The translations under genes were made by a program, and so were the position numbers. A DNA stretch of 64,000 nucleotides, taken from assembly GCA_963971535.1 (NCBI GenBank), contig OZ020598.1, positions 98,577,674 through 98,641,673 on the forward strand, read 5' to 3'. Of the stretch, positions 50,103-56,213 are shown piece after piece (within the stretch, counting starts at the first letter, position 1; the number at the start of each line of letters is the position of its first letter). The notes below the pieces were generated by a model that was not told the DNA's origin, ran no database searches, and saw only the letters and a list, made by a program, of their open reading frames with translations. Source of the stretch: Notolepis coatsorum (Eukaryota > Chordata > Actinopteri > Aulopiformes > Paralepididae).

Positions 50103-50792
50103 ATGGTCCTGGACAAAGGCGAGCTGCTGGCGCAACAGACCAAGAACAGCGACTGCACATCGCTAGTGTCTGTGCTGCTGGAAGGTCCTCCTCACAGTGG
50201 GAAGACGGCCCTGGCAGCTAAAATCTCTAAAGACTCTGAGATCCCCTTCATCAAAATATGCTCTCCGGACAAGATGATCGGACACTCTGAGATCTCCAAG
50301 TGCCAGGCCATCAAGGTGTTTGACGACGCCTACAAGCCTGAGTTGAGCTGCGTGGTGGTGGACGACATCGAGCATCTCCTGGACTATGTTCCCATCGGGC
50401 CTCGCTTCTCCAACCTGGTGCTCCAGGCTCTGCTGGTGCTGCTGAAGAAGCCCCCTCCCAAGGGCCACAAGCTGCTGATCATCGGCACCACCAGTTGCAA
50501 GGACGTCCTGCAGGAGATGAAGATGTTAGACGCCTTCAGCACCACCATCCACGTCCCCAACATCTCCACCGGGGAGCAGCTGGTCGACGCCCTGGAGCTG
50601 CTGGGGAGCTTCACGGAGAAGGAGCGAGCCAGCGTCGCACACCAGCTGAAAGGCAAGAGAGTCTGGATCGGCATCAAGAAGCTCCTGATACTCATTGAGA
50701 TGTCCCTCCAGATGGACGCGGAGTATAGAGTGTCCAAGTTCCTGTCTCTGCTGAGAGACGAGGGGGCTGACCGTGGCAACTTATACGAATAG
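50103..50792 (+). pseudogene. NSF cassette unit A: D2 domain
   Basis: 229 codons open from [16 protein letters not shown] through Walker A GPPHSGKT, Walker B VVVDDIE, GTTSC, to [11 protein letters not shown]...NLYE and stop. D2 is complete but the D1/linker part is missing; instead the 5' side is gypsy integrase, joined at GTCCTGG. Unlike unit D it has no 62-bp duplication. NSF D2 mainly serves hexamer formation; without N and D1 domains a SNARE-disassembly role is not expected. Confidence 0.85.
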
Positions 50793-51456
50793 GACGGAGG
50801 GGGACGCTGTCGGGCCGGTGCGCGACAAAAACAGGACGAAGGAAGGCATTATGTGGCTCATTTCTGTCAAAGCATGTTCTACTATAACATCATCACACAC
50901 GTGCCAGAATGAAAATGCCTAGGGGTCATTTGAAAATCACACTCTTGGAGCAGCAGAAACACTGTGATGTGTACCCCTTGGCTGCGTACAGTGTTGGAGG
51001 AAAACGCTTTGTTACACTGAAACGTCACATTTGCTGTGCATTTTAGGTAATTGGAATACATTATGTTAACACTTTTTTTGTGCAATTTCATGACTATCAT
51101 AATGATAACATCTATAAAATACTTATGATGCTATTGTACTTTTGTCTATTTACATTATTAACAGGCTGGGAAAGATGGAGGCGAAGCTCCGAGTAGTGAT
51201 GGATGATCGGATCGAGAAGTTGGTCCTTCCATTGGGAATCAGTGCATTGCACATCACCTCAGGTGCATTGCACATCACCTCAGGAACACCAAAGCCTCTG
51301 AGCTTGGTGCGATAATTTGCCATCTTGTATTTGATGCTTTGTTGCCAGCCATAGTAACCTGAGAAGGGGTTCTCCTTGAGACAAGGATATTTCGTGACAA
51401 GCGATTCAGCAACATCACTTATCTGTGCACTTGATGGATAGGCTGTATATGTATAT
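50793..51456. pseudogene. Unit A spacer: SAMD3-like pieces in two orientations
   Basis: Plus strand 50938-51046: TLLEQQKHCDVYPLAAYSVG then GKRFVTLKRHICCAF and stop (multicopy-gene C terminus). Plus strand 51174-51235: AACAG then MEAKLRVVMDDRIEKLVLPL (SAMD3-like first exon). Minus strand from about 51456 to 51240: [20 protein letters not shown] ... FGVPEVMCNA, with the 21-bp PEVMCNA duplication also found in the inverted locus. The two SAMD3 exons meet head-to-head at CCATTGGGAAT. Confidence 0.75.
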
Positions 51457-52167
51457 ATGGTCCAGATCCTGACAATCCACACCAACAAGATGAAAGGCTC
51501 CGGCCGGTTGGCTGGCAACGTCGACATCCTAGAGCTGGCAACCGAGACCAAAAACTTCAGTGGTGCCGAGCTGGAAGGGCTGGTCCGAGCGGCCCAGTCC
51601 ACCGCCATGAACCGCCACATCAAGGCTACATCGACATGGAGAGAGCCGAGAAGCTACAGGTCACCAGAGCCGACTTCTTTGGATCGCTGAACAATGACAT
51701 CAAACCGGCGTTTGGCATCAACCAGGAGGACTACGCCAGTTATATCATGAAAGGCATCATCAAGTGGGGCGACCCAGTGACCCATGTCCTGGACAAAGGC
51801 GAGCTGCTGGCGCAACAGACCAAGAACAGCGACTGCACGTCGCTAGTGTCTGTGCTGCTGGAAGGTCCTCCTCACAGTGGGAAGACGGCCCTGGCAGCTA
51901 AAATCTCTAAAGACTCTGAGTTCCCCTTCATCAAAATCTGCTCTCCGGACAAGATGATCGGACACTCTGAGATCTCCAAGTGCCAGGCCATCAAGGTGTT
52001 TGACGACGCCTACAAGTCTGAGTTGAGCTGCGTGGTGGTGGATCGGCATCAAGAAGCTCCTGATACTCATTGAGACGTCCCTCCAGATGGACGCGGAGTA
52101 TAGAGTGTCCAAGTTCCTGTCTCTGCTGAGAGACGAGGGGGCTGACCGTGGCAACTTATACGAATAG
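51457..52167 (+). pseudogene. NSF cassette unit B
   Basis: Starts [41 protein letters not shown] 13-nt deletion after KATST shifts the frame (TSTW instead of TSTVEVDM); a second ATG (51636) reopens the correct frame: [20 protein letters not shown] through Walker A to SCVVVD. There a 305-bp deletion (junction TGGA) removes Walker B onwards to KGKRVW, and the frame ends in RHQEAPDTH. Not a functional ATPase. Confidence 0.85.
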
Positions 52168-52810
52168 GACGGAGGGGGACGCTGTCGGGCCGGTGCGCGA
52201 CAAAAACAGGACGAAGGAAGGCATTATGTGGCTCATTTCTGTCAAAGCATGTTCTACTATAACATCATCACACACGTGCCAGAATGAAAATGCCTAGGGG
52301 TCATTTGAAAATCACACTCTTGGAGCAGCAGAAACACTGTGATGTGTACCCCTTGGCTGCGTACAGTGTTGGAGGAAAACTCTTTGTTACACTGAAACGT
52401 CACATTTGCTGTGCATTTTAGGTAATTGGAATACATTATGTTAGCACTTTTTTTTTGCAATTTCACGACTATCATAATGATAACATCTATAAAATACTTA
52501 TGATGCTATTGTACTTTTGTCTATTTACATTATTAACAGGCTGGGAAAGATGGAGGCGAAGCTCCGAGTAGTGATGGATGATCGGATCGAGAAGTTGGTC
52601 CTTCCATTGGGAATCAGTGCATTGCACATCACCTCAGGAACACCAAAGCCTCTGAGCTTGGTGCGATAATTTGCCATCTTGTATTTGATGCTTTGTTGCC
52701 AGCCATAGTAACCTGAGAAGGGGTTCTCCTTGAGACAAGGATATTTCGTGACAAGCGCTTCAGCAACATCACTTATCTGTGCACTTGATGGATAGGCTGT
52801 ATATGTATAT
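52168..52810. pseudogene. Unit B spacer: SAMD3-like pieces
   Basis: Same order as the unit A spacer: C-terminal exon (+, about 52312-52421), SAMD3-like first exon (+, ATG near 52550), inverted internal exon (-, to 52810). It lacks the 21-bp PEVMCNA duplication of unit A. Confidence 0.75.
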
Positions 52811-54164: not shown

Positions 54165-55246
54165 ATGGTCCAGATCCTGACAATCCACACCAACAAGATG
54201 AAAGGCTCCGGCCGGTTGGCTGGCAACGTCGACATCCTAGAGCTGGCAACCGAGACCAAAAACTTCAGTGGTGCCGAGCTGGAAGGGCTGGTCCGAGCGG
54301 CCCAGTCCACCGCCATGAACCGCCACATCAAGGCTACATCGACATGGAGAGAGCCGAGAAGCTACAGGTCACCAGAGCCGACTTCTTTGGATCGCTGAAC
54401 AATGACATCAAACCGGCGTTTGGCATCAACCAGGAGGACTACGCCAGTTATATCATGAAAGGCATCATCAAGTGGGGCGACCCAGTGACCCATGTCCTGG
54501 ACAAAGGCGAGCTGCTGGCGCAACAGACCAAGAACAGCGACTGCACGTCGCTAGTGTCTGTGCTGCTGGAAGGTCCTCCTCACAGTGGGAAGACGGCCCT
54601 GGCAGCTAAAATCTCTAAAGACTCTGAGTTCCCCTTCATCAAAATCTGCTCTCCGGACAAGATGATCGGACACTCTGAGATCTCCAAGTGCCAGGCCATC
54701 AAGGTGTTTGACGACGCCTACAAGTCTGAGTTGAGCTGCGTGGTGGTGGACGACATCGAGCATCTCCTGGACTATGTTCCCATCGGGCCTCGCTTCTCCA
54801 ACCTGGTGCTCCAGGCTCTGCTGGTGCTGCTGAAGAAGCCCCCTCCCAAGGGCCACAAGCTGCTGATCATCGGCACCACCAGTTGCAAGGACGTCCTGCA
54901 GGAGATGAAGATGTTAGACGCCTTCAGCACCACCATGAACGTCCCCAACATCTCCACCGGGGAGCAGCTGGTCGACGCCCTGGAGCTGCTGGGGAGCTTC
55001 ACGGAGAAGGAGCGAGCCAGCGTCGCACACCAGCTGAAAGGCAAGAGAGTCTGGGGAGCTTCACGGAGAAGGAGCGAGCGAGCCAGCGTCGCACACCAGC
55101 TGAAAGGCAAGAGAGTCTGGATCGGCATCAATAAGCTCCTGATACTCATTGAGATGTCCCTCCAGATGGACGCGGAGTATAGAGTGTCCAAGTTCCTGTC
55201 TCTGCTGAGAGACGAGGGGGCTGACCGTGGCAACTTATACGAATAG
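54165..55246 (+). pseudogene. NSF cassette unit D, with 300-codon open D2 frame
   Basis: Carries the 13-nt deletion near 54333, but from ATG 54344 the frame is open for 300 codons to NLYE and TAG: linker (1-50), Walker A GPPHSGKT (77-84), CSPDKMIG (102-109), Walker B VVVDDIE (133-139), GTTSC (177-181; family has Arg in the last place), C-terminal [12 protein letters not shown] 62-bp duplication plus a 4-bp insertion (66 bp in all) adds about 22 residues near 238-259 without breaking the frame. No promoter is recognised; translation is unproven. Confidence 0.8.
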
Positions 55247-55619
55247 GATGGAGGGGGACGCTGTCGGGCCGGTGCACGATGAAAACAGGACGAAGGAAGG
55301 CATTATGTGGCTCATTTCTGTCAAAGCATGTTCTACTATAACATCATCACACACGTGCCAGAATGAAAATGCCTAGGGGTCATTTGAAAATCACACTCTT
55401 GGAGCAGCAGAAACTCTGTGATGTGTACCCCTTGGCTGCGTACAGTGTTGGAGGAAAACGCTATGTTACACTGAAACGTCACATTTGCTGTGCATTTTAG
55501 GTAATTGGAATACATTATGTTAACACTTCTTTTTTTGCAATTTCATGACTATCATAATGATAACATCTATAAAATACTTATGATGCTATTGTACTTTTGT
55601 CTATTTACATTCTTAACAG
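55247..55619 (+). pseudogene. Unit D: multicopy-gene C-terminal exon
   Basis: As in the other units: TLLEQQKLCDVYPLAAYSVG then KRYVTLKRHICCAF and stop by 55500, then GTAATTGG and an AT-rich stretch ending in TTAACAG before the SAMD3-like first exon. Confidence 0.65.
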
Positions 55620-56213
55620 GCTGGGAAAGATGGAGGCGAAGCTCCGAGTAGTGATGGATGATCAGATCGAGAAGTTGGTCCTTCCATTGGGAATCAGTGC
55701 ATTGCACATCACCTCAGGAACACCAAATCCTCTGAGCTTGGTGCGATAATTTGCCATCTTGTATTTGCTGCTTCGTTGCCAGCCATAGTAACCCGAGAAG
55801 GGGTTCCTTGAGACAAGGATATTTCGTGACAAGCGAACATCAGCAACATCAGCAACATCACTTATCTGTGCACTTGATGGATAGGCTGTATGTATATATG
55901 GTTTCAGTACGTCTGCCTTGACCTTTGAGGGAGTTAGAAGCGTTCCATTCATTTTGTAGTCTTCAGTGGCTTTTTCAAGACACATCCGAGTTTCGAATGC
56001 AAACTGTGGAATGGAGAACTGCTTTGGCCATGGCTGACTTTGTTCTGTGGTACTTCGCTTAGGCAGAATAATAGTGTTGTGGGAGGTATACGATCCAGCA
56101 GACTCTGCATTTGCTGCAGTACAGTCTGAACAACATGCAGACTCAAGAGTCACAGTCAGTTGAATGTTGACCAGAGGAACTGGGATCAATATTTCATTTT
56201 TTCGCCATGGCAT
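55620..56213 (-). pseudogene. SAMD3-like fragment with longest coding stretch
   Basis: Minus-strand frame of 183 codons from MPWRKNEILIPVPLVNIQL through WPKQFSIPQFAFETRMCLEK, LLTPSKVKADVLKPYIHTAY, an ADVADV expansion, NPFSGYYGWQRSSKYKMANY and FGVPEVMCNALIP, then into the inverted first exon (plus ATG near 55631). It reaches further upstream in the SAMD3-like gene than any other unit and so marks the outer edge of the array, where the NSF fusion point (TATATATGGT) is passed without NSF sequence. Confidence 0.75.

Follow-up and report, generated by a model that had tools for sequence, protein, structure and literature searches.

How does the end of the membrane-fusion gene NSF, which carries introns elsewhere in the same genome, come to lie in tandem and without introns? 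The question is raised by a 64,000-nucleotide stretch from the fish Notolepis coatsorum (contig OZ020598.1, here C43, 98,577,674-98,641,673; the window, below, means this whole stretch), which we analysed against its own assembly (3.42 Gb) and whose closest protein relatives are from fish. As the original prediction had it, there are four head-to-tail units, and three unit starts are exactly 1354 bp apart; the units occupy 50,103-56,182. The units join a piece of NSF to a transposon scrap and to rearranged pieces of a PB1/SAMD3-like gene, and a related unit lies inverted about 15 kb away. We read the array as one retrocopy that was patched into repeats and amplified at the DNA level, its copies being most likely decaying pseudogenes. 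Judged from the sequence, the probability of this reading is roughly 0.83.

Spliced origin of the NSF part

The longest frame of the array (54,143-55,246) matched NSF chains of the PDB (E 4.9e-143) and contained the Pfam domains AAA and NSF_ATPase_lid. The NSF content comprises the end of D1 and D2 only (residues 273-613 of the NSF protein P0003); a full gene with N, D1, D2 and a start codon was not found among the window copies. A search of the genome for the parental gene, as proposed earlier, located intron-bearing NSF genes on C32 and C24, probably nsfb and nsfa, respectively; the window copies, on C43, lie away from these parental loci (scored candidates of the NSF searches: 40 of 149, 72 of 147 and 40 of 48).

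Nine parental exons (a-i) from C32 carry GT-AG splice sites. The eight junctions between them are CATCAAG/GCTACA, AAACCG/GC, GGAAG/GTCC, AAG/GTGTTT, CCCAAG/GGCC, CTGGAG/CTGCTG, CTCCAG/ATGGAC and GGGGC/TGACC, and all eight are exact in the inverted copy. N4, the NSF part of unit 4, holds all eight as well; N1 starts later and is without the first two, and N2 and N3 have lost two through a 305-bp deletion. The junctions present in the array are exact, save the fourth (d/e), where the adjoining AAG is missing in all four units. That is, the NSF part is intronless, as had been claimed, with exons joined at the parental splice sites in array and inverted copies. The concern that the units might be exons of a split NSF gene whose introns were lost by misassembly is thereby answered: split genes lie elsewhere, and the array copies are spliced. 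Among the matches listed, those across NSF exon joins fall only on C43, in the array and in the two arms of an inverted duplication described below.

The 3' untranslated region (3'UTR) of the copy is 97% and 96% identical to C32 genes and 94% identical to unplaced contig C3665. It breaks off at 50,878, short of the parental AATAAA, and is joined there to a dispersed repeat. The NSF part is thus a spliced copy that was cut at both ends.

Exon skipping or repetition was considered as the source of the 62- and 66-bp repeats and of the 305-bp deletion, and was rejected because exon g contains the repeats and the deletion has its start within exon e. CpG decay as the cause of all odd residues was dropped too; several of them (KGIIKWG, GELLAQQ) also occur in intron-bearing paralog B, which has DNIE in place of NSF's DDIE. 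As an observation of its own, nsfb-like intron-bearing genes are expanded on C32 (20.86-21.27 Mb and 6.15 Mb; loci L026, L028-L033, L038-L043). The exon for P0003 residues about 263-329 was found at at least 7 places there (best 72 of 147 candidates), besides the nsfa-like gene on C24.

Architecture of the array, its inverted relative and their partners

The array is composed as follows, where N denotes the NSF part, T and S the forward and the inverted piece of the PB1/SAMD3-like gene, and cDNA complementary DNA; the exon extents of T1 were taken from unit 4 and the inverted unit.

50,103..50,878, plus strand: N1, NSF D2 from VLDKGELL to the stop (50,792) and 86 bp of NSF 3'UTR
50,871..50,933, plus strand: transposon scrap of unit 1
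50,933..51,240, plus strand: T1, from the PB1/SAMD3-like gene in forward orientation: exon 1, exon 2 (MEAKLRVVMDDRIEKLVLPLGI) and a shortened intron between them
51,241..51,461, minus strand: S1, inverted exon-3 piece of the PB1/SAMD3-like gene with a 21-bp duplication
51,462..52,253, plus strand: N2, NSF cDNA from VQILTIHT into the 3'UTR, with 13-bp and 305-bp deletions
52,254..52,815, both strands: transposon scrap 2, T2 (forward) and S2 (inverted)
52,816..53,607, plus strand: N3, NSF cDNA with 13-bp and 305-bp deletions as in N2
53,608..54,169, both strands: transposon scrap 3, T3 (forward) and S3 (inverted)
54,170..55,332, plus strand: N4, NSF cDNA with a 13-bp deletion and a 66-bp internal duplication, stop at 55,246
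55,333..55,695, plus strand: transposon scrap 4 and T4
55,695..56,182, minus strand: S4', longer inverted exon-3 piece, running past the duplication breakpoint (about 55,900), with no NSF after it

Compared with each other, the units are 93.6-98.9% identical (gapped BLAST, pieces 277 to 2753 bp), far beyond chance; units 2 and 3 are 99% alike. BLAST pieces below 60 bp were left out here and in the comparisons of the PB1/SAMD3-like family. Starts of the four direct copies are spaced 1375, 1354 and 1725 bp apart in the 3' part and 1680, 1354 and 1354 bp apart in the 5' part, the spacings being unequal because of the 305-bp deletion (units 2 and 3), the 66-bp duplication (unit 4) and the 21-bp duplication (unit 1). 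Unit 4 alone spans D2, in which 66 bp are duplicated. Much of D2 is gone from two of the four units, where the 305 bp are deleted, and unit 1 begins inside D2, at its fusion with a Gypsy-like gene. The array has a different join at each of its ends, and position 56,182 is merely the cut point of the array copy, not a common end of the T-S' element. Elsewhere in the window, tandem duplications lie at 22,943-23,295 (177 bp, 97% matches) and 60,582-60,773 (96 bp, 100%).

The main pieces of the inverted unit (34,073-35,780 by BLAST, with its transposon piece extending to 35,972) match the array units at 91.7-97.6% identity. This unit forms part of a much larger structure:

34,073..35,250, minus strand: NSF cDNA of the inverted unit, with a 13-bp insertion, a 62-bp element present three times, a 2-bp insertion and two 3-bp deletions
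35,250..35,972, minus strand: S, T (146 bp more than in the array units) and transposon piece of the inverted unit
23,730..47,389, no strand assigned: part of one arm of a large inverted duplication, holding the inverted unit but not the array

The other arm (C43:98,713,120-98,736,793) differs from it by 13 mismatches and 6 gap openings over 23.7 kb (99.88% identity). Beyond these 23.7 kb the arms are 95.2-98.6% alike in pieces (one 482-bp piece 100%) as far as window position 9,489, where the compared stretch (up to C43:98,750,000 on the other arm) ends; BLAST pieces below 300 bp were left out. On the other arm, about 113 kb off, lies a copy of the inverted unit that is identical in 1172 of 1172 bases. 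The prediction of a single inverted unit was thus right about the orientation and wrong about the number. The array itself sits between the arms, in the 88-kb spacer, 2.7 kb from the end of one arm, and no cassette was found in C43:98,700,000-98,713,100. Read by eye, the inverted NSF copy ends just past its stop (window 33,900-34,078, minus strand) and joins DDLDTFRSGWTNHPIRTEGHMTPNQL, which we take to resemble an integrase-like multicopy fish gene.

Two fish multicopy genes in mixed orientation had been proposed as partners of NSF. Mixed orientation was borne out, but the pieces belong to one gene, whose exons 1-2 lie forward and whose exon 3 is inverted, with the transposon scrap in addition. 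Using tblastn with relatives, we found the first 22 residues of the P0121 family in the forward piece and, from the same family, residues 103-256 (unit 4) or 189-256 (other units) in the reverse piece. Residues 23-102 were not found by tblastn in the window units, nor were exons 1-2-3 on one strand. Pfam gave nothing for P0121 and PB1 for its relative P0148 (2e-05), the only domain above the cut-off and for one relative only. SAMD3-like is a presumed name for the family; it is absent from the labels of all 46 hits. The three exons stand in normal order at C7 and C6, and at C21 and C8 exon 3 is inverted and accompanied by a 101-bp inverted remnant, with no NSF within the 8 kb examined (array rows ending before 55,300 were not used in this comparison). 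Two further observations concern this gene: it lies within a dispersed repeat, with pieces over about 6.5 kb that are 97.5-98.8% identical between C7 and C6, and the inverted-exon-3 form has itself spread to several chromosomes (L036 and L037 against L013, L014, L015, L034 and L035).

At the join between N1 and the transposon scrap, 8 bases (AGCATGTT) fit the NSF 3'UTR and the dispersed repeat alike. For the scrap at about 50,871-50,911, other genomic places make up 31 of the 40 matches listed. The array scrap has 24 bp in common with the inverted unit, whose transposon piece (35,972-35,927) meets T at TTAA.

Upstream of unit 1 lies one further feature:

49,195..50,105, plus strand: Gypsy-like open reading frame (ORF) with RNase H and integrase zinc-binding parts, fused slightly downstream to the NSF of unit 1

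Pfam assigned RT_RNaseH and Integrase_H2C2 to the ORF at 49,195-50,166. The reading at the Gypsy-NSF fusion is presumably integrase core, judged by its motif and without a Pfam hit. By eye, a reverse transcriptase-like ORF was seen at 48,570-49,004. The phage collection gave no match, and in viral_contigs 2 stretches fit a pattern, neither encoding a relative.

Formation of the array and competing explanations

The array contains three S-N joins and four N-transposon joins, and S4' continues through the S breakpoint without NSF, as a tandem duplication leaves it. Head-to-tail units, shared internal joins and a last unit that runs past the breakpoint mark the array as a tandem segmental duplication, and the S-N join, at which two bases (GT) can be assigned to either side, reads as the breakpoint. 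When the 27 bases of this join were searched for in the whole assembly with up to 2 mismatches, they turned up 5 times, without any mismatch and on C43 alone (reversed control: 0). The search for dispersed cassettes, which had been called for, therefore added to the three array joins just one for each arm of the inverted duplication. Three 5' variants are common to N2 and N4, whereas the 305-bp deletion is common to N2 and N3, so the units have exchanged sequence. With columns past the breakpoint excluded, S of unit 4 diverges by 2.2-2.9% from S1-S3, and the inverted copy by 1.8-2.2% from all, so that no branching order can be read from these values.

Instead of an intact D2 gene, amplified, the units carry a processed fragment that is frameshifted in three of four cases (N2, N3 and N4); the inverted copy is frameshifted too. 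Within the array, nonsynonymous changes made up 3/5, 7/8, 5/7, 8/9, 2/2 and 8/9 of all changes in the six pairs, and none of the six departed from neutral expectation. The selection test covered all 10 pairs, which are not independent of each other.

In the course of events that we propose, a spliced messenger RNA (mRNA) of an nsfb-like gene (C32) would have been copied by reverse transcription. Part of this cDNA, reaching from VQILTIHT past the stop and into the 3'UTR, would have landed beside the transposon scrap and a rearranged member of the PB1/SAMD3-like repeat. A tandem duplication with breakpoints in S and NSF may have brought the 5' end of NSF up against the inverted exon-3 piece; additional unequal exchange would have raised the number of units to four, and a Gypsy-like element would have been fused to the first of them. 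A related monomer would have been placed 15 kb away and doubled with the large inverted duplication. Spliced origin, composition, joins and lesions are read directly from the sequence; the order of these steps, the enzyme that would have made the cDNA and the lack of function of the copies are what we infer.

Several findings weigh against this reading. No poly(A) tract is left in the retrocopy, and no target-site duplication was recognised by eye, so the retroposition route lacks direct demonstration; this weakens the enzymatic route and not the spliced origin. No surviving nsfb gene is a clear single parent, as N resembles paralog B more in some exons and paralog A more in others. T of the inverted unit retains 146 bp that are gone from all four array units despite the common S-N join, so any order of deletion, duplication and copying is tentative. 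N1 has an open frame of 229 amino acids, truncated at the 5' end and with its ATG from the Gypsy side, and the D2 frame of N4 runs uninterrupted from an internal Met to its stop. Between the inverted and the array copies, the ratio of nonsynonymous to synonymous rates (dN/dS) is 0.26-0.39, with 6/13 (N1), 10/19 (N2), 12/20 (N3) and 13/22 (N4) changes nonsynonymous (halves rounded up), a lower share than within the array. With transitions and transversions (ts/tv) taken as equal, P values for neutrality were 0.020 (N1), 0.028 (N2), 0.115 (N3) and 0.079 (N4; 0.025 if rounded to 12), and at a ts/tv of 3 they were 0.064, 0.125, 0.324 and 0.241, respectively. Thus, two of the four pairs fall below 0.05 without transition bias and none does at a ts/tv of 2 or more, the whole range across pairs and assumed ratios being 0.02-0.47. 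Some past constraint between the inverted and array lineages, or exchange with functional genes, may be reflected in these values.

Capture of the NSF piece by a Gypsy-like long terminal repeat element, arising from a template switch that involved retrotransposon RNA and NSF mRNA and with the array as a by-product, is unlikely. N1 is indeed fused to the Gypsy-like integrase ORF, but N1 alone touches Gypsy, and does so inside D2; in the other three units, as in the inverted unit, NSF has its start upstream at VQILTIHT, beside S. The Gypsy join therefore looks secondary.

We consider it quite unlikely that the assembly process created the four units, or the inverted duplication, in error. The likeness of units 2 and 3 and the near-identity of the arms would fit such an error. 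However, each unit has private changes and indels, the different joins at the array ends speak for real sequence, and there are zero N in the window and in C43:98,700,000-98,749,999.

It is improbable that N1 and N4 yield functional D2-only NSF proteins able to join or poison NSF hexamers. The open frames, the Walker A motif GPPHSGKT and VVVDDIE, which are kept, and the dN/dS below 1 between the inverted copy and the array are consistent with such a role. On the other side, the out-of-frame 305-bp deletion takes D2 from units 2 and 3, one Lys of IKKVFDD is gone in all four array copies, the inverted copy is frameshifted as well, and changes within the array are unconstrained. More far-fetched is the idea that N1 (with its ATG from the Gypsy integrase gene) and N4 might be expressed as stand-alone NSF D2 modules, the array being a young dominant-interfering or dosage-tuning partner of the expanded, diverging nsfb cluster. 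That the mixed-orientation array might feed small RNAs (PIWI-interacting or endogenous small interfering RNAs) against NSF or the PB1/SAMD3-like family is very doubtful: the same sequences do occur in both orientations in the window, beside retrotransposon ORFs, but such geometry would be expected in duplicated repeats anyway.

Known systems and meaning of the array

Human NSFP1 is an NSF-derived pseudogene in a duplicated region; it is a partial genomic duplicate, not a spliced copy. Among the titles and abstract openings listed from the open-licence literature on retrocopies, tandem amplification and NSF duplication, none concerned an NSF array. Retrogenes in tandem arrays are represented by DUX4 in D4Z4 (and by mouse Dux), where each tandem unit contains an intronless retrocopy of a spliced gene (PMC3004920), as in our array. 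Unlike DUX4, which is coding, conserved by selection and present in 11 to more than 100 repeats in controls (PMC3004920), the NSF array is truncated and has four units, three of them frameshifted. SEPTIN14P-CICP resembles it in that a processed pseudogene was secondarily propagated in a composite DNA segment by segmental duplications, but its copies are dispersed in great apes (PMC13015009), whereas the NSF case is a local tandem array plus an inverted duplication. Arrayed retrogenes and co-duplicated processed pseudogenes are known; what sets this locus apart is its NSF content and its inverted-exon partner.

The array has the look of an odd genomic remnant, not of a new gene system. It illustrates clearly how one spliced copy of a gene can be built into repeats and then multiplied as DNA, and annotation could mistake it for a D2-only NSF family. 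NSF usually has one or two copies in vertebrates, and for this reason the multiplied intron-bearing nsfb-like genes on C32 probably deserve more interest than the array.

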